A stretch of DNA of 64,000 nt, from contig CP043652.1 of NCBI GenBank assembly GCA_014218215.1, forward strand, positions 3,224,001 to 3,288,000, written 5' to 3'. The DNA comes from Geodermatophilaceae bacterium NBWT11 (lineage in GTDB: Bacteria; Actinomycetota; Actinomycetes; Mycobacteriales; Geodermatophilaceae). The position numbers were made by a program, and so were the translations under genes. This document shows, piece after piece, positions 29,831-41,386 of this stretch (its first letter is position 1; each line of letters opens with the position of its first letter). The notes below the pieces were generated by a model. That model did no database searches. It was given only the letters and a program-made list of their open reading frames with translations, and was not told the origin of the DNA.

Positions 29831-29846
29831 CGGTCAGGGTTGACCG
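29831..29846. promoter_or_regulatory. TetR-type operator, site A (before crotonase)
   Basis: CGGTCAGGGTTGACCG is a perfect CGGTCA-N4-TGACCG inverted repeat. It lies 29 bases before the crotonase ATG and right after the MFS stop. Near-identical 16-mers recur at 33179-33194 and 34600-34615, the latter in front of the TetR gene, which makes that TetR the likely binder. Confidence 0.75.
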
Positions 29847-29875
29847 TCAGCCCGCGACCTGGCACACATGTCGCC

Positions 29876-30640
29876 ATGGCTGACACGGTGCTCACCGAGG
29901 TGTCCGACGGCGTCGGGGTCCTCACCCTCAACCGCCCCGAGGCGAAGAACGCGGTCGACCTCGCGACCACGGAGGCGCTCGCCGCGGCGGTGGACGACTT
30001 CGACGCGCGGGACGACGTCACGGTCATGGTGCTCACCGGCGCCGGCGGGGTGTTCTGCGCCGGGATGGACCTCAAGGCCTTCGCCCGCGGCGAGCGGCCC
30101 TCGCTGCCCGGGCGCGGGTTCGCCGGGCTCACCGAGGCCCCGCCGGCCAAGCCGTTGATCGCCGCCGTCGAGGGCTGGGCGCTGGCCGGCGGGTTCGAGC
30201 TCGTGCTGGCCTGCGACCTGGTGGTGGCCTCCCGCGAGGCGCGCTTCGGCATCCCCGAGGTGAAGCGCTCCCTGGTCGCGGCCGGCGGCGGGGTGCTCCG
30301 GCTGCCCAAGACTTTGCCCTACCAGCGGGCGATGGAGCTGGCGCTGACGGGTGACCCGATGGGCGCCGAGGAGGCGCACCGGTTCGGCCTGGTCAACGCC
30401 CTCACCGAGCCCGGCGGCGCGCTCGCCGGCGCCCGCGAGCTCGCCGCCCGCATCGCCGTCAACGGGCCGCTGGCGATCAAGGCCACCAAGAGCCTGGTCG
30501 CCGGGGCCGTCCGCTGGACCGACCGGGAGCTCCTGGACCACCAGGCCACCGTGACCGAGTCGGTGTTCTCCTCCGCCGACGCCCGCGAGGGTGCCGTCGC
30601 CTTCGCCGAGAAGCGCCCCCCGGTCTGGCGCGGCGTCTGA
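29876..30640 (+). CDS. enoyl-CoA hydratase/isomerase (crotonase) family protein
   Basis: This 254-residue crotonase-fold enzyme acts on acyl-CoAs, typically by adding water to enoyl-CoA. LTLNRPEAKNAVD, the oxyanion region GVFCAGMDLKAF and AVEGWALAGGFELVLACDLVVA are the family blocks. The second catalytic Glu region reads ARFGIPEVKRSL, so one acid of the hydratase pair seems present. Operator A lies directly upstream, tying the gene to the acyl-CoA regulon. The 3' end faces the DUF559 gene, with a 55-bp palindrome between them. An isomerase or hydrolase role remains possible. Confidence 0.88.
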   Translation: MADTVLTEVSDGVGVLTLNRPEAKNAVDLATTEALAAAVDDFDARDDVTVMVLTGAGGVFCAGMDLKAFARGERPSLPGRGFAGLTEAPPAKPLIAAVEGWALAGGFELVLACDLVVASREARFGIPEVKRSLVAAGGGVLRLPKTLPYQRAMELALTGDPMGAEEAHRFGLVNALTEPGGALAGARELAARIAVNGPLAIKATKSLVAGAVRWTDRELLDHQATVTESVFSSADAREGAVAFAEKRPPVWRGV

Positions 30641-30648
30641 ACGTCGTC

Positions 30649-30703
30649 GAGTGACAGCTGAGGGGGCGCACCACCCGCTCCGGTGCCCCTTCAGCTGTCA
30701 CTC
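30649..30703. repeat. 55-bp palindromic element, copy 1
   Basis: The element runs from GAGTGACAGCTGAG to CAGCTGTCACTC. Near-complementary outer arms of about 20 bases enclose a variable centre. It sits between the convergent crotonase and DUF559 genes. The DUF559 stop codon and last residues (SDS) lie inside the right arm. Two other copies of exactly 55 bp are at 31491-31545 and 62600-62654. It probably works as a two-way terminator. Confidence 0.85.
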
Positions 30704-31434
30704 AGTGCGGCAGCGATGCGAGCGATGAGCTCGGCCGGACGGAGCAGGTCGGCGGCGGTCACGAAGAGCACCCGCCAGCCTGCTGCCTGCAACGCCTCGA
30801 TGCGCCGACGGTCCGCGGCCACCTGACGGGTGTGCCACGCGCCCTCGTACTCCAGAGCGAGCCGACGTCCCGGCCACGCGAAGTCCGTCCGGGCCACGAA
30901 GCAGCCGCCGATCCGTACCTCGTGCTGCGCGACGGGCCAAGGGAGCCCGGAGAACCGGATGACGAGCCGCAGCCTGGTCTCCTGAGGTGATCCGGCCAGT
31001 CCGTCAGCGAGGTCCAGGGCCGCCCGAGCCCCTCGGCACCCGCGGCCGGTCGTCACCGCCACCCCGGACCGCTGGGTCACCGATGCGCGCGGCAGGGTGC
31101 GGCGGCGGACCCGGACGGCCGGGCAGTCCGCCCGGGGGGCACCGGGGCGGACGGTGAGCTCGACTGGGTCGGTGGGCCCGGCGAGGTCGTGCAGCCCCCA
31201 GAGGACCCCGGCGCTGGCACCGGACACCACGGCGTGCGGGAGGAGCAGCCCGGCCGCAGCACGGACGAGGAGCTCGTGGTCGACCACCGCACCGGCCGCA
31301 ACGTGGATCCCGGGGAGGATCCGCCGCCATCGGGGCCCGCGCAGGTCGTCGACGGTCAGGAGTCCACCGTCGACCGCCGTCCGACCCCGGAACGGCTGGT
31401 CGCCGAACGGGTGCGCTCGACGGGCCGGGGTCAC
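30691..31434 (-). CDS. DUF559 protein with AbiEi-like N-terminal region, apparently shortened
   Basis: This 247-residue protein belongs to a common actinobacterial family with an AbiEi antitoxin-like winged-helix start (VDDLRGPRWRRILPGIHVA) and a C-terminal DUF559 (Vsr/restriction endonuclease-like) domain. Core residues include VARTDFAWPGRRLALEYEGAWH and QAAGWRVLFVTAADL. Family members are usually near 290-300 residues. The stretch between about 125 and 155 (VTTGRGCRGARAALDLADGLAGSPQETR) looks contracted, so an internal deletion is likely. The function is unproven. 55-bp palindromes flank it on both sides, suggesting it moved as a cassette. It splits the acyl-CoA regulon and shows no operator of its own. 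Confidence 0.78.
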   Translation of the reverse strand: MTPARRAHPFGDQPFRGRTAVDGGLLTVDDLRGPRWRRILPGIHVAAGAVVDHELLVRAAAGLLLPHAVVSGASAGVLWGLHDLAGPTDPVELTVRPGAPRADCPAVRVRRRTLPRASVTQRSGVAVTTGRGCRGARAALDLADGLAGSPQETRLRLVIRFSGLPWPVAQHEVRIGGCFVARTDFAWPGRRLALEYEGAWHTRQVAADRRRIEALQAAGWRVLFVTAADLLRPAELIARIAAALSDS

Positions 31435-31490
31435 CGGGGCAGCGTCCCCGAAGCGGGCCCGCCCGGGAGACCGCCTGTGGACAGGCCGCC

Positions 31491-31545
31491 GAGTGACTGC
31501 TGAGGGGGTGCGCGACGAGCGCCTGCGCCCGCTCAGCTGTCACTC
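31491..31545. repeat. 55-bp palindromic element, copy 2
   Basis: This copy has the same length and ends as copy 1 (GAGTGACTGCTGAG to CAGCTGTCACTC) but a different centre. It lies between the 5' end of the DUF559 gene and the 3' end of the acyl-CoA ligase gene, 5 bases after the ligase stop in the direction of ligase transcription. It probably terminates the ligase transcript. Confidence 0.85.
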
Positions 31546-31550
31546 GGTGC

Positions 31551-33113
31551 TCAGACCGCCGGGTGGGCGACCAGGGAGCCGGCGGAGTGCTCCTGGCGGA
31601 GCTGGGTCTTGAGCACCTTGCCGCTGGGGTTGCGGGGGAGGGCGCCGACGACGGAGAACTCGCGGGGGCACTTGTAGCCGGCCAGCCGCTCGCGGCACCA
31701 GGCGGTCAGCTCGGCCGGGGTGGGGGGAGCGGAGGGGTCGCGCGGGGCGACGACGGCCAGCGGCGCCTCGCCCCAGCGGGTGTCGGGCACCCCGATGAGC
31801 GCGACCTCGGCGACGCCGGGGTGTGCGGCGAGCACGTCCTCGACCTCGGCGCAGTAGACGTTCTCCCCGCCGGAGATGATCATGTCCTTCACCCGGTCGA
31901 CGACGAAGAAGTAGCCGTCCTCGTCCTGCCGCACCAGGTCGCCCGAGTGGAACCAGCCGCCGGCGAAGGCCTCCGCGGTCTCTGCGGGCTTGCCCCAGTA
32001 CTCGCGCATGACCATCGGCGAGCGGTAGACGATCTCGCCGACCTCCCCGCGCGGGACGTCGACCATCGCCTCGTCCACGACCCGCACCTCCACGTTGAGG
32101 ATCGGGGTGCCGACGGAGCCGATCTTGCGCAGCGCGTCCTCCCCGCGGAGCAGGCAGGTCACCGGGGAGCACTCGGTCTGGCCGAACGCGGTGACCATCT
32201 CGGCCTGGGGGAAGGCCGCCAGCATCGCGCGCAGCAGCGTCGTCGACGCCGGGGCCGCACCCCACGAGATCCGCCGCAGCCGGGAGAGGTCGCGCCCGGC
32301 GAGGTCCGGGACGGCGACGACCGCCTGCCAGGCCGCCGGGACGAAGAAGCAGGAGGTGACCTGCTCGGCCACCATCTCGTCCAGCGTCGCCGCCGGGTCG
32401 AAGGCGCCGGACCGGGTGATCACGAACGTGCCGCCGATGAGCAGGTTCGGCAGCATCCCGGCCACCGCGGCGATGTGGAAGAGCGGGGCCCCGTAGAGGG
32501 TCGTCCGGTCGTCGGGGGACCAGCCCAGGTGGGTCATGTGGCTGACGGCGTGCATCAGCAGGTTGCGGTGGGTGAGGACGGCGCCCTTGGGCTTGCCGGT
32601 GGTGCCCGAGGTGTACATCAGGAACGCGGGGTCGGCCTCCTCCACGACGGGGTCCACCGGGGTCGGGTCGGCCGCGGCCAGCGCCGCCTCGTACTCCGGA
32701 CCGACGGTGAGCACCGAGGTGACCGCGGGTGCCCGGTCCCGGGCCTTCGCAGCGGTCTCGGCGGTCGCCGCGTCCACCACGAGCGCGACGGCACCGGAGT
32801 CGGCGAGCACGTAGGCCACCTCGTCGGCGACCAGCCGGAAGTTCACCGGGACGGCGATCGCCCCCAGCCGCACGGTCGCGAGGTACGTCTCCACCACCTC
32901 GAGCCCGTTGAGCGCGAGCACCGCGACCCGGTCGCCGTGCCCGACGCCGGCGGCGGTGAGCACGGCGGCCAGCCGGGTGACCCGCTCGTCCAGCTCGGCG
33001 TAGGTGCGACCGGTGCCGGCGAAGCGGAGGGCGACGGCGTCCGGGGTGGACCGGGCGTGCCGGGCGACCTGGTCGGAGATCGTCATCCCGCGCCAGCTCT
33101 GGGTGGTGGTCAT
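31551..33113 (-). CDS. fatty-acid/acyl-CoA ligase (FadD-like)
   Basis: This 520-residue AMP-forming acyl-CoA ligase has MYTSGTTGKPKGAVLTH (P-loop-like A3), TAFGQTECSP, GWFHSGDL, VDRVKDMIISGGENVYCAEVE and SGKVLKTQL with the C-terminal catalytic Lys. The chain-length or cyclic substrate is not resolved. It is divergent from the SDR gene; operator B lies in the shared promoter region 65 bases before the ATG, so the TetR regulator probably represses it. It would supply the CoA ester on which the nearby dehydrogenase, hydratase and SDR act. The ATG at 33113 was chosen; an internal ATG at 33086 is possible. Confidence 0.92.
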   Translation of the reverse strand: MTTTQSWRGMTISDQVARHARSTPDAVALRFAGTGRTYAELDERVTRLAAVLTAAGVGHGDRVAVLALNGLEVVETYLATVRLGAIAVPVNFRLVADEVAYVLADSGAVALVVDAATAETAAKARDRAPAVTSVLTVGPEYEAALAAADPTPVDPVVEEADPAFLMYTSGTTGKPKGAVLTHRNLLMHAVSHMTHLGWSPDDRTTLYGAPLFHIAAVAGMLPNLLIGGTFVITRSGAFDPAATLDEMVAEQVTSCFFVPAAWQAVVAVPDLAGRDLSRLRRISWGAAPASTTLLRAMLAAFPQAEMVTAFGQTECSPVTCLLRGEDALRKIGSVGTPILNVEVRVVDEAMVDVPRGEVGEIVYRSPMVMREYWGKPAETAEAFAGGWFHSGDLVRQDEDGYFFVVDRVKDMIISGGENVYCAEVEDVLAAHPGVAEVALIGVPDTRWGEAPLAVVAPRDPSAPPTPAELTAWCRERLAGYKCPREFSVVGALPRNPSGKVLKTQLRQEHSAGSLVAHPAV

Positions 33114-33178
33114 CGCGGTGGGCTCCCTGCTGCACGGCGGGCGGGTGACGTGGGCCATGCTGTCGGCAGCGTTGTAGA

Positions 33179-33194
33179 CGGTCAACCCTGACTG
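33179..33194. promoter_or_regulatory. TetR-type operator, site B (between ligase and SDR)
   Basis: CGGTCAACCCTGACTG is read on the plus strand. Its reverse complement, CAGTCAGGGTTGACCG, is identical to site C. It is placed 23 bases before the SDR GTG and 65 before the ligase ATG, so one bound regulator could block both divergent promoters. Confidence 0.75.
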
Positions 33195-33217
33195 TCGCCG
33201 ATCGAGGAGGAGAGCTC

Positions 33218-33973
33218 GTGGACGTCACCGATGCCGTCGCCGTCGTCACCGGAGGGGCCTCGGGTCTCGGCCTGGCCACCGCGAAGCGGCTGCGCGCCGC
33301 CGGCGCGCAGGTCGTGCTGCTGGACCTGCCCGGCTCGGCCGGGGAGCAGGTCGCCGGCGAGCTCGGCGCGCACTTCGCCGCCACCGACGTCACCGACACC
33401 GCCCAGGTCGAGGCGGCGCTGGACCAGGCCGTCGAGCTCGGTCCGCTGCGCGTGGTGGTCAACTGCGCCGGGATCGGCAACGCGGTGAAGACCGCGGGGA
33501 AGAAGGGCCCGTTCCCGCTGGAGGCCTTCCAGAAGGTCGTCGCGGTCAACCTGTTCGGCACGTTCAACGTCATCCGGCTGGGCGCCCAGCGGATGCTCGA
33601 CGTGGACCTGCTCGGCGAGGAGCGCGGCGTCATCGTCAACACCGCCTCGGTGGCCGCGTTCGACGGCCAGATCGGGCAGGCGGCCTACTCCGCGTCCAAG
33701 GGCGGCATCGTCGGCATGACGCTGCCGATCGCCCGCGACCTGGCGCAGTACGCGATCCGGGTGGTCACCATCGCGCCCGGGCTGTTCAACACCCCGCTGC
33801 TGGCCGGGCTGCCCGAGGAGGCCAAGGCGTCCCTGGGTGCCCAGGTGCCGCACCCGGCCCGGCTCGGTGAGCCCGACGAGTTCGGCGCGCTGGCCGCGCA
33901 CATCGTGGCCAACCCGATGCTCAACGGCGAGACGATCCGGCTCGACGGCGCGATCCGGATGGCCCCCCGCTAG
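33218..33973 (+). CDS. SDR-type 3-hydroxyacyl-CoA dehydrogenase (HSD17B10-like)
   Basis: This 251-residue classical short-chain dehydrogenase has the NAD-binding [16 protein letters not shown], and the catalytic Ser ([11 protein letters not shown]) and YSASKGG motif. The overall sequence style, including [12 protein letters not shown], resembles type II 3-hydroxyacyl-CoA dehydrogenases. It would oxidise the hydroxyacyl-CoA made by the crotonases. A strong GAGGAGGAG ribosome site precedes the GTG, and operator B is just upstream. The stop overlaps the convergent TetR stop by 4 bp. Confidence 0.9.
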
Positions 33974-34578
33974 GACTCCAGCAGCTCCCTGGCCAGCGAC
34001 TGCCACATCGCCACGTGGGGGTCGGTGGCCGGGGGGCGGTCCTCGAAGGCGTAGGCGATGGCCACCCCGCGCATCGAGGTGAAGAGCAGCTCGGAGACCA
34101 CCGCGTAGCGGGGCGACGACGTCACGGTCGGGCCCCAGATGCGGTCCCCGACCCCGCGGATCGCCGCCCGCAACCGGCGCTCCTGCGGGCGCAGTGCCGC
34201 CCGCAGGGTCGCGTCGGTGCGGGCGGCGTTCCACAGCTCCATGGCCGCCCAGAACGGCGGCTCGAAGAACGTCGCCCAGATCAGCTCCACGCACCGGTCG
34301 ACCCGCTCGGCCGGGTCGGTGATGGCCGCACCCACCTCGACGGCGTGGTCGGCGGCCTCGGTCAGCATCGTCTCGGCCAGGTGCGAGGTGGCCGCGACCA
34401 GCAGCTCCTCCCGGGACGGGAAGTGGTGCAGCAGTCGGCCGCGGGACACCCCGGCCCGGGCCTGCACGGCCAGCGTCGAGGCCCCGGCGTAGCCGTCGGA
34501 GACCAGGCAGGCGACGGCGGCGTCGAGGATCAGCGCGCGGCTGTCGGCGCTGCGTTCGCTGCGGCTGCGGGTCTGCAC
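33970..34578 (-). CDS. TetR family regulator of the acyl-CoA regulon
   Basis: This 202-residue TetR repressor has the N-terminal helix-turn-helix at about residues 14-60 ([20 protein letters not shown] and [19 protein letters not shown]) and a helical ligand domain after it. It starts with GTG and is divergent from the acyl-CoA dehydrogenase operon; operator C lies 22 bases from its start. The three matching operators suggest autoregulation and control of all four catabolic units. Ligands of such regulators are usually acyl-CoA intermediates (as for KstR-type proteins), but the ligand here is unknown. Confidence 0.9.
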
Positions 34579-34599
34579 CTCGCCAGCCTACGCAGGTGA

Positions 34600-34615
34600 C
34601 AGTCAGGGTTGACCG
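34600..34615. promoter_or_regulatory. TetR-type operator, site C (between tetR and dehydrogenase operon)
   Basis: CAGTCAGGGTTGACCG shows the same CRGTCA-N4-TGACCG inverted repeat as sites A and B. It lies 20 bases before the dehydrogenase ATG and 22 bases before the tetR start, the classic position for an autoregulated divergent repressor. Confidence 0.78.
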
Positions 34616-34635
34616 TTCCGTGACCCGGCCGGAGG

Positions 34636-35889
34636 ATGCCCGACGTGGACTTCGACGACACACCCGACGAGGCCGCCTACCGGGCGCGCGTGCGGGACCT
34701 GCTGGCCGAGCACGCCGCCGACCTGGTGCACCTCGATGCCGGCGAGGAGGCCGGGGACGCCGCCGAGCAGGAGCAGGCGCTGCGCCGCACGCAGCGGGTG
34801 CTCGCCGACGCCGGGCTGGTCGGGGTGGCCTGGGCCGCCGAGCACGGGGGACAGGCCGGCAGCCTGGCCCAGCAGGCGATCGTGGGCCAGGAGCTTGCCC
34901 GCGCCCGGGTGCCCGCGCTGATCAACCACATCGGGCTGGGCATGTGCGGGCCGACCGTGGTCGCGCACGGCACCCCCGCGCAGCACGAGCGGTACCTGGC
35001 CCGGCTGCTGCGGGCCGACGACGTCTGGTGCCAGCTGTTCAGCGAGCCGGCCAGCGGCTCGGACCTCGCCGCACTGCGCACCACCGCCGTCCGCGACGGC
35101 GAGGACTGGGTGGTCAACGGCCAGAAGGTCTGGACGACGCTCGCGCACGTCGCCGACTTCGGCATCCTGCTGACCCGCACCGACCCCGGGAAGCCCAAGC
35201 ACGCCGGGCTGACCATGTTCGTGGTCGACATGCACGCCCCCGGGGTGACGGTCCGGCCGCTGCGCCAGATGGGCGGGCAGTCGGACTTCAACGAGGTGTT
35301 CTTCGACGACGTCCGGATCCTCGACAGCGAGCGGCTCGGCGAGCCCGGGGAGGGCTGGCGGGTCGCGCTGACCACGCTGCTCAACGAGCGGGTGGCGGTC
35401 GGCGGCGGCGGCAACGACCTGGGGCTGTCGGTGGAGTCGCTGGCCCGGCTGGCTGCCGCGAAGCTGCCCGGGCTCACCCCCGAGCGCCGGGTGCTGGCCC
35501 GGCAGGCGGTCGGTCGGGCCGCCGTCGCCGCGCTCGGCAACCGGTACACCGGCTACCGCCGGCTCACCGCGATCAGCCAGGGCGGGCTGCCCGGGCCCGA
35601 GGCCAGCGCCGGCAAGCTCGCCGGCACCGCGGCCTCCCGGCTGGTCTCCGACGCCGGGGTCCGGTTGCTGGGCGACGACGCCGTCTTCGCCGTCGGCACG
35701 GGGGACGACGGCACTGGGGAGGACGGAGCCGGCCGCTGGCAGCGCAACCAGGCCTGGCTGCCCGGCATCGCGATCGCCGGGGGCACCGACGAGGTGCTCC
35801 GCAACATCATCGGCGAGCGGGTGCTGGGGCTCCCGCCGGAGCCGCGCGAGGACAAGCACCGTCCCTTCGACGCCGGGAGCCGGGCGTGA
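34636..35889 (+). CDS. acyl-CoA dehydrogenase, large-type subunit of a paired enzyme (FadE17-like)
   Basis: This 417-residue flavin-dependent acyl-CoA dehydrogenase has LFSEPASGSDLAAL and VVNGQKVWTTLAHVADFGIL for FAD and substrate binding, NEVFFDDVRI, and the C-terminal AGGTDEVLRNIIGERVLGLP. The gene is followed, with a 4-bp overlap, by a second dehydrogenase-like gene. Such pairs (fadE17-fadE18, fadE28-fadE29 in mycobacteria) form alpha2beta2 enzymes acting on bulky acyl-CoAs such as steroid side chains. That substrate class is an inference. Operator C is directly upstream. Confidence 0.92.
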   Translation: MPDVDFDDTPDEAAYRARVRDLLAEHAADLVHLDAGEEAGDAAEQEQALRRTQRVLADAGLVGVAWAAEHGGQAGSLAQQAIVGQELARARVPALINHIGLGMCGPTVVAHGTPAQHERYLARLLRADDVWCQLFSEPASGSDLAALRTTAVRDGEDWVVNGQKVWTTLAHVADFGILLTRTDPGKPKHAGLTMFVVDMHAPGVTVRPLRQMGGQSDFNEVFFDDVRILDSERLGEPGEGWRVALTTLLNERVAVGGGGNDLGLSVESLARLAAAKLPGLTPERRVLARQAVGRAAVAALGNRYTGYRRLTAISQGGLPGPEASAGKLAGTAASRLVSDAGVRLLGDDAVFAVGTGDDGTGEDGAGRWQRNQAWLPGIAIAGGTDEVLRNIIGERVLGLPPEPREDKHRPFDAGSRA

Positions 35890-36863
35890 ACTTCGACCTC
35901 GACCAGGACCAGCTCGACGCCGCCGCTGGGGCGCGCCGGTTCTTCACCGACCAGGCCTCCCCGGCCGCCGCCCGCGCGGCGCTGGAGGAGGGACCGGTGC
36001 AGCCGGGCCGGCAGGCGCTGGCCGACATCGGGTTCCTCGGGATCACCGTGGCGGAGTCCACCGGTGGGGGCGGCGGTGCGCTGCTGGACCTCGCCGTCGT
36101 CGCCGAGCAGGCCGGTGCGGTGCTGGCCGGTCCCTCGCTGGTCACCGCGGCCCGTGCCGCGGTGCTGCTGGCGGAGGAGCCCGAGCTGGCCGCCGCGCTG
36201 GCCGACGGGTCACGGGCCTTCTGCGTGGTGGACGGCTCGTCCCCGGCGCTGGACGCGGTCGGGGCCGACACGTTCCTGGCGCTCGTCGACGGCGACCTCG
36301 TGGTGGGGGGCGGCACCGTGGTCACCGGGCAGCCGATGGACGCCACCCGGGGCCTCGGCGTCGTCACGCTCACCGACCCCCGGGTGCTCGTGCCCGACGC
36401 CGCGGCGCTGTGGGCCCGGGCCCGGGACGTCGCCCTGGTCGTACTGGCCGCCGAGGACCTGGGCACGGCCGGGAGGGCCGTCGAGGTGGGCGTGGCCTAC
36501 GCGAAGGAGCGGCACGCCTTCGGCCGGGCGATCGGCAGCTACCAGGCGGTCAAACATTCCCTGGTCGACGCCTGGGTCGGGGTCGAGCAGCTGCGCTCGC
36601 TGGTCTGGTGGTCGGCCTGGGCCGCCGACCGCGCCCCCGACGAGCTGCCGTTGGCCGCAGCCGCCGCGAAGGCGTTCGCCGCGGAGACCCTGGAGCGCGC
36701 CGCGGAGACCTGCATCCAGGTGCACGGCGGCACCGGGTTCACCTGGGAGCACGACGCGCACCTGTACTGGCGGCGGGCCAAGGTCGACCGGCTGCTGCTG
36801 GGCGACGCTGCCGAGCACCACGACGTCGTCGCCGGGCTCGTCCTGGCCGGGGCGCTGTCGTGA
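35886..36863 (+). CDS. acyl-CoA dehydrogenase, partner subunit (FadE18-like)
   Basis: This 325-residue shortened acyl-CoA dehydrogenase has an N-terminal helical domain (NFDLDQDQLDAAAGARRFF) and a C-terminal domain (YAKERHAFGRAIGSYQAVKHSL, CIQVHGGTGFTWEHDAHLYWRRAK). The middle beta domain is degenerate, as in the non-FAD-complete partner of heteromeric dehydrogenases. The GTG at 35886 overlaps the upstream gene by 4 bp and the 3' end overlaps the crotonase gene by 4 bp, so the three are coupled. The order dehydrogenase-dehydrogenase-hydratase recalls mycobacterial fadE17-fadE18-echA13. Confidence 0.9.
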   Translation: MNFDLDQDQLDAAAGARRFFTDQASPAAARAALEEGPVQPGRQALADIGFLGITVAESTGGGGGALLDLAVVAEQAGAVLAGPSLVTAARAAVLLAEEPELAAALADGSRAFCVVDGSSPALDAVGADTFLALVDGDLVVGGGTVVTGQPMDATRGLGVVTLTDPRVLVPDAAALWARARDVALVVLAAEDLGTAGRAVEVGVAYAKERHAFGRAIGSYQAVKHSLVDAWVGVEQLRSLVWWSAWAADRAPDELPLAAAAAKAFAAETLERAAETCIQVHGGTGFTWEHDAHLYWRRAKVDRLLLGDAAEHHDVVAGLVLAGALS

Positions 36864-37720
36864 GGCAGTGGGAGCAGGTCTCCTGGGCCGTGGACGGCGG
36901 GGTCGGCACGTTGACCCTGGACCGGCCGGACCGGCGCAACGCCTACACCCCGGTGATGGCCCGCGAGCTGGGCGAGGTGGCCGCGGTGGCCGATGCCGAC
37001 GACGCGGTCCGGGTCGTGGTGGTGACCGGCACCGGACGGGACTTCTGCGTCGGGGCCGACCTGCAGGGGGCGGGCACCTTCGACCGCAGCGCCCAGGCCG
37101 CGCAGGCCGGCACCATCGACGGGGTCGCCCGCGACTGGGGTGGCATCGGTGCACTGCCGTTCGCCGCGCTGCGCAAGCCGGTGATCGCCGCGGTCAACGG
37201 TGCCGCGGTGGGCATCGGCGCCACGATGATCCTGCCGATGGACGTCCGGATCGCCGGGGAGTCGGCCCGCTTCGGCTACGTCTTCGCCCGCCGCGGGATC
37301 GTCCCGGAGGCCGCCTCGAGCTGGTTCCTGCCGCGGGTGGTGGGGATCAGCCAGGCCATGGAGTGGGTGGCGACCGGGCGGGTGTTCGACGCCGCCGAGG
37401 CGCTGCGCGGCCGCCTGGTGTCCCGCGTCGTCCCCGATGCCGAGCTGCTGGACACCGCCTACGCGGTGGCCCACGAGATCGCCGACAACACCTCCGGGGT
37501 CTCCGTGGCGGCGTCCCGGCAGCTGCTGTGGTCGATGTTGTCGGCGTCCAGCCCGTGGGACGCGCACCGGGCCGAGTCCCGGGCGCTGGTCGAGCTCGGC
37601 GCCGGGGCCGACGCCGCGGAGGGCGTGGCCTCCTTCCTGGAGAAGCGGCCCGCGGTGTTCACCGCCCCGCTGGACGGCATCGGCGAGGGCTGGCCCGCAC
37701 CCCCGCCGGACCTGGCCTGA
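36860..37720 (+). CDS. enoyl-CoA hydratase (EchA-like)
   Basis: This 286-residue crotonase family enzyme is the third gene of the dehydrogenase operon. Motifs are LTLDRPDRRNAYTP, the oxyanion loop RDFCVGADLQG, AAVNGAAVGIGATMILPMDVRIA and FGYVFARRGIVPEAASSWFLPR, whose Glu is the usual catalytic acid. It would hydrate the enoyl-CoA made by the paired dehydrogenase. The GTG at 36860 overlaps the upstream stop by 4 bp. The open frame further upstream is a shadow. Confidence 0.9.
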   Translation: MRQWEQVSWAVDGGVGTLTLDRPDRRNAYTPVMARELGEVAAVADADDAVRVVVVTGTGRDFCVGADLQGAGTFDRSAQAAQAGTIDGVARDWGGIGALPFAALRKPVIAAVNGAAVGIGATMILPMDVRIAGESARFGYVFARRGIVPEAASSWFLPRVVGISQAMEWVATGRVFDAAEALRGRLVSRVVPDAELLDTAYAVAHEIADNTSGVSVAASRQLLWSMLSASSPWDAHRAESRALVELGAGADAAEGVASFLEKRPAVFTAPLDGIGEGWPAPPPDLA

Positions 37721-37776: not shown

Positions 37777-38298
37777 GTGGACAACGAGATCACCCTGCGG
37801 GTGGACGGCGCGGTCACCCCGCTGACCGTCGACACCCGCACCTCCCTGCTGGACGCCCTGCGCGAGCGCCTGGGCAACACGAGTGCGAAGAAGGGCTGCG
37901 ACCACGGCCAGTGCGGGGCCTGCACGGTCCTGCTCGACGGCCGCCGGGTCAACAGCTGCCTGGTCCTGGCGGTCACCGCCGAGGGCCAGGAGGTCACCAC
38001 CTCGGACGGGCTGGCCGGCGACGGACCGCACCGGCTGCACGAGACGTTCGTCGACCACGACGCCTACCAGTGCGGCTACTGCACCCCCGGCCAGATCACC
38101 TCGGCGGCCGGCGTGCTCGCCGAGGCCGCGCAGGGCTGGCCCAGCGCGGTGAGCGAGGACCTCGTCGCCGAGCGGACCGACCTCACCGACGCCGAGATCC
38201 GCGAGCGCATGTCGGGCAACCTCTGCCGCTGCGCCGCGTACGCCAACATCGTCCCGGCGGTCGCCGAGGTCGCCACGGAACAGGGAGTGCGCGCGTGA
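37777..38298 (+). CDS. two-[2Fe-2S] subunit of molybdenum aldehyde oxidoreductase (PaoA/CoxS-like)
   Basis: This 173-residue iron-sulfur subunit of a xanthine-oxidase family enzyme carries electrons from the Mo site to FAD. The first, plant-ferredoxin-type cluster uses the cysteines of KKGCDHGQCGACTV and NSCLV. The second, helical cluster uses CGYCTPGQ and LCRCAAY. No Tat signal is present, so the enzyme should be cytoplasmic, unlike periplasmic E. coli PaoABC. The GTG at 37777 is the only start in the conserved frame. It lies 56 bases after the crotonase gene and may be read through or have its own promoter. Confidence 0.93.
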   Translation: MDNEITLRVDGAVTPLTVDTRTSLLDALRERLGNTSAKKGCDHGQCGACTVLLDGRRVNSCLVLAVTAEGQEVTTSDGLAGDGPHRLHETFVDHDAYQCGYCTPGQITSAAGVLAEAAQGWPSAVSEDLVAERTDLTDAEIRERMSGNLCRCAAYANIVPAVAEVATEQGVRA

Positions 38299-39320
38299 GG
38301 GAGTTCCGGTACGAGAAGGCCGCCGACCCGGCCAGCGCGGTCGCGCTGCTGGCCGACGAACCGACCGGGGCCTACCTGGGCGGGGGCACCAACCTGGTCG
38401 ACCTCATGCGGCTGGGCGTGGCCACCCCGGACCTGCTGGTCGACGTCCGGCAGCTGACCTCCACCGAGGTCACCGACCTGCCCGACGGCGGGCTGCGCAT
38501 CGGTGCCGCGGTGCCCAACGCCGACCTCACCGGCGAGCGCCGGGTCCGGGAGCGCTACCCGCTGCTGGCCCAGGCGCTGCTGGCCGGGGCGAGCGGGCAG
38601 CTGCGCAACCGGGCCACCACCGGCGGCAACCTGCTCCAGCGCACGCGGTGCACCTACTTCACCGACGTGACGATGCCGTGCAACAAGCGGGAGGCGGGCT
38701 CCGGCTGCGCCGCCGTCGGCGGCTACCACCGCAACCTCGCCGTGCTCGGCGCCACGAACGAGGGCGGGGAGTCCCCGCACACCTGCGTGGCCACCCACCC
38801 CTCCGACATGGCCGTCGCGCTGCGCGCCCTGGACGCCACCGTGCAGGTGCTGGGCCGGGACGGCGAGCGGAGCATCCCGATCGCCGAGCTGCACCGCCTG
38901 CCCGGGGACGACCCGACCCGCGACACCACGCTCGCGCACGGGGAGCTGATCACCGCGATCGACGTCCCGGCTCTGCCGTGGGCGACCCGCTCGCGCTACC
39001 GCAAGGTCCGGGACCGGGCCTCCTACGCCTTCGCCCTGGTCAGCGTGGCCGCGGCCATGGACCTGCAGGGCACCGGCCCGGACGCCGTCGTCGGTGACGT
39101 CCGGATCGCCCTGGGCGGGGTCGCGCACAAGCCCTGGCGGGCCACCGTGGCCGAGGACGCCCTGCGTGGCGGGCCGGCCACCGAGGCCGCCTTCACCGCG
39201 GCCGCCGAGGCCGAGCTGGCCGCCGCCGACCCGCTCAGCGACAACGCGTTCAAGATCCCGATGGTCACGAACATGATCACCCGCACCCTGCTCCAGATCT
39301 CCGCGGAGGCCCGCGCATGA
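38295..39320 (+). CDS. FAD and [4Fe-4S] subunit of aldehyde oxidoreductase (PaoB-like)
   Basis: This 341-residue FAD-binding medium subunit has the FAD loop LGGGTNLVDLM and the TTGGNLLQRTRC block. Between them and HPSDMAV lie extra cysteines (RC, PCNK, SGCAA, HTCVATHPSDMAV). This is the four-cysteine pattern that binds a [4Fe-4S] cluster in E. coli PaoB (YagS). The resemblance places the enzyme in the PaoABC aldehyde oxidase branch rather than CO dehydrogenase. The GTG overlaps the upstream stop by 4 bp. Confidence 0.92.
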   Translation: MREFRYEKAADPASAVALLADEPTGAYLGGGTNLVDLMRLGVATPDLLVDVRQLTSTEVTDLPDGGLRIGAAVPNADLTGERRVRERYPLLAQALLAGASGQLRNRATTGGNLLQRTRCTYFTDVTMPCNKREAGSGCAAVGGYHRNLAVLGATNEGGESPHTCVATHPSDMAVALRALDATVQVLGRDGERSIPIAELHRLPGDDPTRDTTLAHGELITAIDVPALPWATRSRYRKVRDRASYAFALVSVAAAMDLQGTGPDAVVGDVRIALGGVAHKPWRATVAEDALRGGPATEAAFTAAAEAELAAADPLSDNAFKIPMVTNMITRTLLQISAEARA

Positions 39321-41386
39321 CCGCCACCACCGAACGGGCCGTCGGCAGCGACGTCCGCCGCATCGACGGACCGGACAAGGTCCGCGGCCGCGCGCCCTAC
39401 GCCTACGAGCACGAACTGGGCGCGCAGGCGGTCTTCGTGGCCCTCGTCCAGTCGACCGCGGCCAGGGGACGGATCACCTCGATCGACGTCAGCGCGGCCG
39501 AGGCGCTGCCGGGGGTGCTCGCCGTCCTGACGCACGAGAACGCGCCGCGGCTGGGTGACGTGGCCGACGAGATCGTCGTGCTGCAGTCCGACCGGGTGCA
39601 GTACGTCGGCGAACCGGTGGCCGCCGTGGTCGCGGAGTCCTCCGAGGTCGCCCGGGACGCCATCGGCCGGGTCGTCGTCACCTACGACGCGCAGCCCGCC
39701 GACGTCCGGCTGGCCACCGACCGAGACGACCTGTACCCGCCGGAGGAGCTGATGGCCGGCTTCGAGACCGACTCGGTCATCGGGGACGTCGACGCCGCGC
39801 TGGACGCGGCACCGGTGAGCATCGACGTCACCTACGAGACGCCGAACCAGCACAACAACCCCATCGAGATGCACGCGACCGTCGCCCGCTGGGACGGCGA
39901 CGTGCTGCGCATGTGGGACGCCAACCAGGGCCCGCACAACCTCGTGCCGGTGATCACCGAGGCGTTCGGGATCACCGAGGACCAGCTGCACATCACCTCG
40001 CCCTACGTGGGCGGTGCGTTCGGGTCCAAGGCCTACACCCACGTGCACCAGCTGATCGCGGGGATGGCCGCGAAGGTCACCGGGCGCACGGTCAAGCTGG
40101 AGCTGACCCGGCCACAGATGTTCACCCTGGTCGGGCACCGCACGCCCACCATCCAGCGGTTGCGCCTGGGCGCGCAGCCCGACGGCACCCTGACGGCGAT
40201 CAGCCACGAGGTCGTCGAGCACACCTCGCAGAACGCCGAGTTCGCCGAGCAGACCGCCACCGCGACGCGGTTGATGTACTCGGCGCCGGCCCGCCGGACG
40301 ACGCACCGGCTGGCCAAGCTCGACGTCCCGGCGCCGACGATCATGCGGGCGCCGGGGGAGACCCCGGGCATGTACGCCCTGGAGTCGGCGATGGACGAGC
40401 TGGCCGCCGAGCTGGGCATCGACCCGATCGAGCTGCGGCTGCGCAACGAGCCCGACCGCGACCCCGAGCGCGGCGTGCCGTGGAGCACCCGCAATCTGGT
40501 CGCCTGTTTGCGCCAGGGGGCGCAGCGGTTCGGCTGGGCCGACCGCGACCCGCGCCCGGGCGTCCGGGAGGACGGCCGCTGGTTGGTCGGCACCGGCGCC
40601 GCCGCGGCGACCTACCCGACCCGTCGCCGTCCGTCTGCGGCCCGGATCGAGGCCGTGGAGGGCAAGCCGTACGTGGTGAGCATCGACGCCTCGGACATCG
40701 GCACCGGCGCGTGGACCGCGCTGACCCAGATCGCCGCCGACGCCCTCCGGGTGCCGATGGACCGGATCGACCTGCGGATCGGCGACAGCCGGCTGCCGAA
40801 GGCGTCGGGGGCCGGCGGCTCCACCGGGATCACGTCGTGGGGTCCCGCGATCATGGCCGCGGCCGAGCAGCTGGCCGACCGGGAGGTCCCGGCCGGTGGG
40901 CTCACCGTCACCGGTGAGGCCGGCCCCGGTGACGAGGCCGAGCAGTACTCCAGCCACGCCTTCGGGGCGCACTTCGCCGAGGTCCGGGTCGACCAGGACT
41001 CCGGGGAGGTGCGGGTGCCGCGGATGACCGGGGTGTTCGCGGCCGGGCGGATCATCAACGCCACGACCGGCCGCTCACAGTTCCTGGGCGGCATGACGAT
41101 GGGCCTGTCGATGGCGCTGCACGAGGAGTCGGTGCTCGACCAGACCCGCGGGCACTACGCCAACCACGACCTGGCCGAGTACCACATCGCCAGCAACGCC
41201 GACGTCGGCGAGATGGACATCAGCTGGATCGACGAGTCCGACGACCTGCACAACCCGCTGGGCGCCAAGGGCATCGGCGAGATCGGCATCGTCGGGTCCG
41301 CGGCGGCGATCGGCAACGCGTACTGGCACGCCACCGGACGCCGGGTCCGCGACCTGCCCATCACCCCGGACAAGTACTTCCGCTGA
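39317..41386 (+). CDS. molybdopterin-binding subunit of aldehyde oxidoreductase (PaoC-like)
   Basis: This 689-residue Mo-cofactor subunit has an Ald_Xan_dh_C domain at about residues 20-130 and two MoCo-binding domains after it. Recognisable blocks are SPYVGGAFGSKAY, MRAPGETPGMYALESAMDELA and the C-terminal GAKGIGEIGIVG, where Glu is the base of the xanthine-oxidase family. The substrate is probably an aldehyde or N-heterocycle. Beside an acyl-CoA regulon it could oxidise an aldehyde to the acid that the ligase activates, which is an inference. The ATG overlaps the upstream stop by 4 bp. A perfect palindrome follows the stop. Confidence 0.93.
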   Translation: MTATTERAVGSDVRRIDGPDKVRGRAPYAYEHELGAQAVFVALVQSTAARGRITSIDVSAAEALPGVLAVLTHENAPRLGDVADEIVVLQSDRVQYVGEPVAAVVAESSEVARDAIGRVVVTYDAQPADVRLATDRDDLYPPEELMAGFETDSVIGDVDAALDAAPVSIDVTYETPNQHNNPIEMHATVARWDGDVLRMWDANQGPHNLVPVITEAFGITEDQLHITSPYVGGAFGSKAYTHVHQLIAGMAAKVTGRTVKLELTRPQMFTLVGHRTPTIQRLRLGAQPDGTLTAISHEVVEHTSQNAEFAEQTATATRLMYSAPARRTTHRLAKLDVPAPTIMRAPGETPGMYALESAMDELAAELGIDPIELRLRNEPDRDPERGVPWSTRNLVACLRQGAQRFGWADRDPRPGVREDGRWLVGTGAAAATYPTRRRPSAARIEAVEGKPYVVSIDASDIGTGAWTALTQIAADALRVPMDRIDLRIGDSRLPKASGAGGSTGITSWGPAIMAAAEQLADREVPAGGLTVTGEAGPGDEAEQYSSHAFGAHFAEVRVDQDSGEVRVPRMTGVFAAGRIINATTGRSQFLGGMTMGLSMALHEESVLDQTRGHYANHDLAEYHIASNADVGEMDISWIDESDDLHNPLGAKGIGEIGIVGSAAAIGNAYWHATGRRVRDLPITPDKYFR

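Follow-up and report, generated by a model that had tools for sequence, protein, structure and literature searches.

The 64,000-nucleotide stretch of the soil actinobacterium Geodermatophilaceae bacterium NBWT11 considered here (GenBank assembly GCA_014218215.1, contig CP043652.1, positions 3,224,001 to 3,288,000 of the forward strand; hereafter the window, with positions counted from its first base) carries a cluster of genes for acyl-coenzyme A (acyl-CoA) metabolism, a gene for a TetR-family regulator (tetR) in their midst and three copies of a short palindromic operator. We propose, with a probability of roughly 0.75, that the TetR protein is an autoregulated repressor which blocks RNA polymerase at the promoters of β-oxidation genes until an acyl-CoA releases it, the substrate most likely being methyl-branched. 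The sites, their conservation, their link to tetR, the promoter overlap and the set of enzymes can be read from the DNA itself, and they make a strong sequence case for a conserved TetR regulon of acyl-CoA breakdown, of a familiar kind, which we did not find in the literature searched.

An operator repeated in the window

The sequence CRGTCAGGGTTGACCG has three exact matches in the window, at 29831 (plus strand), 33179 (minus) and 34600 (plus); each is in a promoter region, and none of 100 dinucleotide shuffles of the window contains a single one.

29831 to 29846, plus strand: operator site A, CGGTCAGGGTTGACCG, 29 bp 5' of the ATG of ech1 (enoyl-CoA hydratase)
33179 to 33194, minus strand: operator site B, between the divergent fadD (acyl-CoA ligase; start 33113, minus) and the short-chain dehydrogenase/reductase (SDR) gene (33218, plus)
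34600 to 34615, plus strand: operator site C, between the divergent tetR (start 34578, minus) and acd1 (acyl-CoA dehydrogenase; 34636, plus)

Site A, a perfect palindrome of 6+4+6, has its first base immediately after the stop codon that ends the preceding transporter open reading frame (ORF); all ten distinct regions upstream of ech1 in the family loci used contain the site. Sites B and C are the same sequence on opposite strands. The exact count and this identity both agree with an earlier sequence-only reading of the window, which had noted three promoter copies and seen no other.

Loose matching adds nothing to this. With up to three mismatches CRGTCAGGGTTGACCG occurs six times in the window where 2.93 are expected, and 10 of 100 shuffles reach six, so that only the exact copies stand out and the additional matches were discarded as chance. 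That the sites themselves are chance palindromes, or a repeat element, could draw on the behavior of the broad palindrome CRGTCANNNNTGACYG (half-sites CRGTCA-N4-TGACYG, spacer free), which, with one mismatch allowed, has three matches in the window where chance predicts 1.11 and is not significant from the window alone. Such an origin is nevertheless scarcely credible in view of the empty shuffles, the 96 sites against none for the reversed pattern in 775 kb, and the conserved position of the sites before start codons.

The operator follows tetR across genomes

Orthologs of tetR, defined by at least 65% identity, are present in 51 of 112 genomes of the family and absent from 61. The strict motif CRGTCANSGTTGACCG occurs in 43 of the former and in 5 of the latter (Fisher P 4e-17, relatedness not corrected), and in 42 of 45 family loci an exact broad site lies within about 250 bp of tetR. 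Among 21 loci of other families (L129-L144, L146-L148, L150 and L151), ten have an exact site beside tetR and 16 have one at no more than one mismatch. The half-sites of the operator are fixed and its spacer is variable. It has kept its place next to tetR in Frankia, Pseudonocardia, Mycolicibacterium and Williamsia despite changed neighbor genes, in the last three genera for example another acyl-CoA dehydrogenase or another SDR.

Of 33 weaker TetR matches (37-50% identity), the five examined (44-47%, 12-13 kb each) had no site even at one mismatch, and five loci with weaker relatives (L152-L156, 34-42%), left out of the counts, had none beside tetR. Several unlinked places with the strict motif (G012:C29, G022, G040, G093, G018:C2 and G069) were not counted as regulon; the first four are within or at the edge of called ORFs, that of G022 being unclear. 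Together with the unlinked β-oxidation copies described below, these distributions argue for what the first reading of the window had supposed, an acyl-CoA regulon under the neighboring TetR protein.

Probable members of the regulon outside the locus

In the 4,594,226-base genome the operator core GTCAGGGTTGAC is present at three places, all of them in this locus, and the broad palindrome CRGTCANNNNTGACYG at six; the reversed patterns gave none in either case. Five of the six are in promoter position and one is within a called ORF, which answers a refutation check set by the first reading of the window. The place in the called ORF (2473973), which is an unrelated one, was set aside as a member. 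At 1597527 there is a perfect palindrome about 120 bp 5' of the likely start codon of a thiolase gene, the best solved match of its product being a putative acetyl-CoA acetyltransferase, with FadA5 among the other matches. The first reading had found no thiolase in the window; since this one stands behind a near-identical operator, it is probably part of the regulon. The place at 2786896 is 13 or 61 bp, depending on the start codon chosen, 5' of a gene for a flavin enzyme; among solved structures, this enzyme is best matched by FabK-type enoyl-acyl carrier protein reductases (E about 1e-18). Finally, a one-mismatch operator precedes a second acyl-CoA ligase gene. The pattern GGTCANNNNTGACC with one mismatch was rejected as too loose for such searches, having 307 genome places per strand.

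The nearest named relatives of the source genome belong to Klenkia, and both unlinked copies are kept in this group. In a set of eight genomes (the source, G076, G077, G078, G079, G080, G082 and G083, the ninth, G081, being left out), an exact operator lies 5' of a thiolase copy in all eight, although in G076 and G080 it is at a second copy and the best-matching one has no site. It likewise lies 5' of the flavin enzyme gene in all eight. The spacers of these thiolase and flavin-enzyme operators differ across the group. A search of 22 other genomes for the flavin enzyme gave no match at the cut-off. Of six second-ligase genes of close similarity in the genus, five have an exact site within 300 bp; in G078 this operator faces an acyl-CoA dehydrogenase gene instead.

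The surroundings of the regulated thiolase (L080, genome 1592000-1604000) include a mutase-like ORF before it and, after it, a hydrolase-like and then a flavin-monooxygenase-like ORF, as judged by eye from their translations.

Promoter overlap and a possible mechanism

The right half of the operator contains the hexamer TTGACC, from which the following promoter elements are predicted.

33180 to 33185, minus strand: predicted -35 element of fadD, TTGACC in site B
33157 to 33162, minus strand: predicted -10 element of fadD, CAGCAT, 17 bp from the TTGACC of site B
34609 to 34614, plus strand: predicted -35 element of acd1, TTGACC in site C
34632 to 34637, plus strand: predicted -10 element of acd1, GAGGAT, 17 bp from TTGACC

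The operator places TTGAC on the coding strand in 40/40 upstream regions of acd1, 10/10 of ech1, 33/33 of those fadD regions that hold the site and 5/5 of the second ligase, these last chosen for having it. Moreover, NANNNT follows TTGACC at 17-18 bp in 39/39 distinct acd1 promoters and 33/33 distinct fadD promoters with the site, against 0-4 in shifted windows, which are the only control for a pattern and distance that were picked after looking. A sigma-70 scan found no promoter, and a search for TAxxxT 3' of the operator found none. Because of the combination of TTGACC with NANNNT we read the right half-site as a -35 element, at which a bound repressor would exclude RNA polymerase. The predicted -10 element of acd1 overlaps the ATG at 34636, making it possible that translation is leaderless from a GTG at 34645, the start codon being inferred.

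The position of the operator also bears on the sign of regulation. Were the TetR protein an activator, or a dual regulator using the same operator, one would hardly expect the site to overlap the predicted -35 element in every one of the 72 distinct promoters of fadD and acd1 that have it, which is the position of a repressor; we regard this alternative as very improbable. Where a thiolase or flavin-enzyme promoter has a site, the spacer departs from the TTGAC type (10/11 and 8/8, respectively), and so the mechanism there may differ from that at acd1 and fadD.

We infer, then, the binding itself, repression rather than activation, an acyl-CoA ligand and the class of substrate. The TetR protein (33970-34578) would be a dimeric repressor of its own gene that binds CRGTCA-N4-TGACYG at five, perhaps six, promoter regions of this genome: those of ech1, of fadD/SDR, of tetR/acd1-acd2-ech2, of the unlinked thiolase, of the unlinked FabK-like flavin enzyme and possibly, at the one-mismatch site, of the second fadD. 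The -35 box of fadD and acd1 (TTGACC, 17-18 bp, NANNNT) would coincide with the operator's right half, and occupancy would keep the polymerase away. The acyl-CoA product of the ligase would release the repressor, whereupon the ligase, the paired dehydrogenase, the hydratases, the 3-hydroxyacyl-CoA dehydrogenase and the thiolase would all be switched on, for a substrate that is most likely a methyl-branched, isoprenoid-type acid.

The regulator

The tetR product has the N-terminal helix-turn-helix domain of the TetR family (PF00440 at 9.4e-13), and its structure model (predicted local distance difference test score 89.8) finds TetR-family structures as its best matches; the domain and fold, as well as a palindromic operator beside its own gene, are what is expected of a member. 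Its sequence gives only weak matches to those of the PDB (best E 7e-9). By Foldseek E-value the nearest structure is KstR, at a template modeling (TM) score of about 0.5-0.6, and KstR has been solved with acyl-CoA ligands. In an NCBIfam scan every listed model scored below its cut-off, so that no curated family names this protein, which had not been recognized from sequence as a described regulator either.

Genes of the locus

29876 to 30640, plus strand: ech1, crotonase-family enoyl-CoA hydratase; NCBIfam PRK08252 subfamily, above cut-off
31551 to 33113, minus strand: fadD, acyl-CoA ligase (AMP-binding); best NCBIfam model FadD5, below its cut-off
33218 to 33973, plus strand: SDR of the type-2 3-hydroxyacyl-CoA dehydrogenase (HSD10) kind; closest solved relative Rv1144 (6ujk)
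33970 to 34578, minus strand: tetR, TetR-family regulator, proposed repressor of the regulon
34636 to 35889, plus strand: acd1, acyl-CoA dehydrogenase; closest solved relative Tcur3483, then 4x28 chain A
35886 to 36863, plus strand: acd2, second acyl-CoA dehydrogenase subunit; best solved match 1ukw, second Tcur3481
36860 to 37720, plus strand: ech2, second crotonase; stop/start overlap with acd2

The genes acd1, acd2 and ech2 form an operon 3' of site C in which the stop codon of each of the first two genes overlaps the start codon of the next, and the presence of ech2 in it gives the locus two crotonases. The adjacent acd1 and acd2 each match one chain of the solved heteromeric complex Tcur3481/Tcur3483, which fits the earlier suggestion that paired dehydrogenases point to a bulky or branched acyl-CoA. 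For acd1, Tcur3483 is the best solved match and 4x28 chain A the third sequence; for acd2, 4x28 chain D ranks below 1ukw and Tcur3481. The Glu of an NER/HER stretch, which we take to be the catalytic residue of the acd1-type subunit, is aligned in acd1, Tcur3483 and 4x28 chain A. As judged from these assignments, the ligase, heteromeric dehydrogenase, hydratases and type-2 3-hydroxyacyl-CoA dehydrogenase, along with the unlinked thiolase, make up a complete turn of β-oxidation.

Between ech1 and fadD is an ORF (30691-31434) without a Pfam match at 1e-5. Some Klenkia-group genomes have relatives of 57% identity at the same place, facing either way, and in another none is found there, giving the ORF the look of a mobile insertion inside the locus. 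It is flanked by two 55-bp hairpins of the GAGTGACAGCTGAG...CTCAGCTGTCACTC type (30649-30703 and 31491-31545; DNA folding z about -6.5). Further copies are near genome positions 322138, 3481465 and 3286600, two at convergent gene ends and the last (window position about 62600) inside a called ORF. Directly after ech2 are molybdenum hydroxylase genes (2Fe-2S, flavin adenine dinucleotide and molybdenum subunits; 37786-41386), also located close to it in some other genera; no operator copy was found 5' of them in the window.

Clues to the substrate

The genes that the operator precedes in related bacteria suggest a methyl-branched substrate, a lean by kinship. In sister genera an exact site is 36-87 bp 5' of the matched start of a cytochrome P450 gene, the closest solved relatives of its product being CYP124A1; 14 of 29 such CYP124-type loci have an exact site and one more has it at one mismatch. 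Close relatives of AtuA (88-100% identity) are found in five of the nine genus genomes, and in four of these five an exact site lies about 800 bp upstream, before the preceding gene, which is mycothiol-isomerase-like where it was read. The more distant copies (58-59%) in the other four genus genomes, the source included, have no site, one copy per genome having been considered. It is because CYP124-type P450s and an AtuA cluster lie under the operator in relatives that we favor a methyl-branched acid.

The Atu system is the acyclic terpene utilization pathway of Pseudomonas. The Klenkia relatives resemble it in having an AtuA-family gene under the operator (at one locus a carboxyltransferase gene also), and differ from it in that their AtuA cluster is not linked to tetR. 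Elsewhere, a CYP268-type P450 gene is near the TetR ortholog of Sporichthya, at a locus in which no operator was found, and one Pseudonocardia has a P450 gene near its ortholog. In Frankia the site precedes a thiolase and an SDR gene, with a CoA-transferase family III gene next to them on the other strand.

Weighing the alternatives

A number of observations weigh against the interpretation proposed at the outset. With respect to the regulon, 11 of 44 fadD upstream regions lack an exact site, and none of the ten ech1 promoters has a -10 element at the expected place. The thiolase operator is exact in 6 of 22 other genomes and has one mismatch in 2; in 14 the examined thiolase copy is without a site, a number that is an upper bound, as 8 of these genomes have further copies (59-77% identical) outside the examined set. 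Five of the 21 loci of other families (L136, L141, L148, L150 and L151) have no tetR-side site even at one mismatch. The likeness of the TetR model to KstR is that of the general TetR fold, some other TetR chains having higher TM scores. Five genomes without a tetR ortholog hold the strict motif, and in the genome G031 (L066, L192), where no ortholog was found, an exact operator is kept before a CYP124-type gene. This last case is what one would expect if another regulator bound the three sites and tetR were a bystander. Yet such a regulator would have to account for a motif that stays by the tetR ortholog across families while the neighbors change and that is missing from the five weaker TetR relatives examined, and we consider it highly improbable.

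As for the substrate, the CYP124-type exact sites show a weak contrast between genomes with a tetR ortholog (13/22) and those without (1/7), and no CYP124-type gene was found at the cut-off in any of the eight Klenkia-group genomes. The AtuA relatives of the source genome itself are only 56-58% identical, and the one examined has no site. The best NCBIfam model of acd2 is IpdE2 (138.9 bits against a cut-off of 450, hence no assignment to IpdE1/IpdE2), a dehydrogenase of steroid catabolism, and this leans to a cyclic substrate. The same operator and regulon could accordingly serve a sterol side chain, a steroid-ring fragment or some other cyclic acid, as might also be read from the matches of acd1 and acd2 to Tcur3483/Tcur3481 and 4x28, from FadA5 among the thiolase matches and from KstR as the nearest structure to the TetR model. 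However, the thiolase is best matched by a putative acetyl-CoA acetyltransferase, and the relatives have CYP124-type genes and AtuA under the operator. We thus hold a cyclic or steroid substrate to be rather unlikely and prefer the methyl-branched one.

Comparison with known systems

Four regulators invite comparison. The closest parallel is the KstR regulon of mycobacteria, in which a TetR-type autorepressor binds a short palindrome before many lipid-catabolic genes and the operator partly overlaps a promoter element (PMC1995591), KstR being also the best Foldseek match here. The KstR motif is TnnAACnnGTTnnA (PMC1995591), unlike the CRGTCA-N4-TGACYG of the present operator, and the TetR protein scores 27.4 bits with the KstR model, far from its cut-off of 280, so that it cannot be counted as a KstR. 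BkaR of mycobacteria is similarly an autoregulated TetR repressor, in its case of a branched-chain keto-acid operon, but has the motif core GTTA(N)T(N4)A(N)TAAC (PMC3920632). MftR is a TetR repressor with long-chain acyl-CoA effectors; it differs in its palindrome, T-N2-GGCA-N5-TGCC-N2-A, and in controlling mycofactocin genes (PMC8728441). MadR also answers to acyl-CoAs, yet its consensus, TCTGTGxxxxxxxGT, is at desaturase promoters (PMC8872791). The operator described here does not match the published operators of BkaR, MftR or MadR. Six written forms of it retrieved two unrelated papers and no relevant one from the literature searched, and a search by subject found none describing this regulon.

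Significance for the family and its relatives

On a wider and more tentative view, to which we would give somewhat less than an even chance, a TetR sensor undescribed in the searched literature switches on the breakdown of methyl-branched isoprenoid acids through one conserved operator across Geodermatophilaceae, Frankia, Pseudonocardia, Williamsia and Mycolicibacterium, with enzyme sets that vary by lineage. These sets would comprise P450 oxidation in some genera, CoA ligation, heteromeric dehydrogenation, thiolysis and, in others, an AtuA/carboxylase branch. The analysis supplies, for a catabolic route in Geodermatophilaceae, an operator, a regulator and a list of genes that can be put to the test. 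The operator would join unlinked genes, namely those for the thiolase, the flavin enzyme and the CYP124-type P450 of sister genera, to one pathway, and the change of enzyme sets under a constant operator would be a clear case of regulon rewiring.

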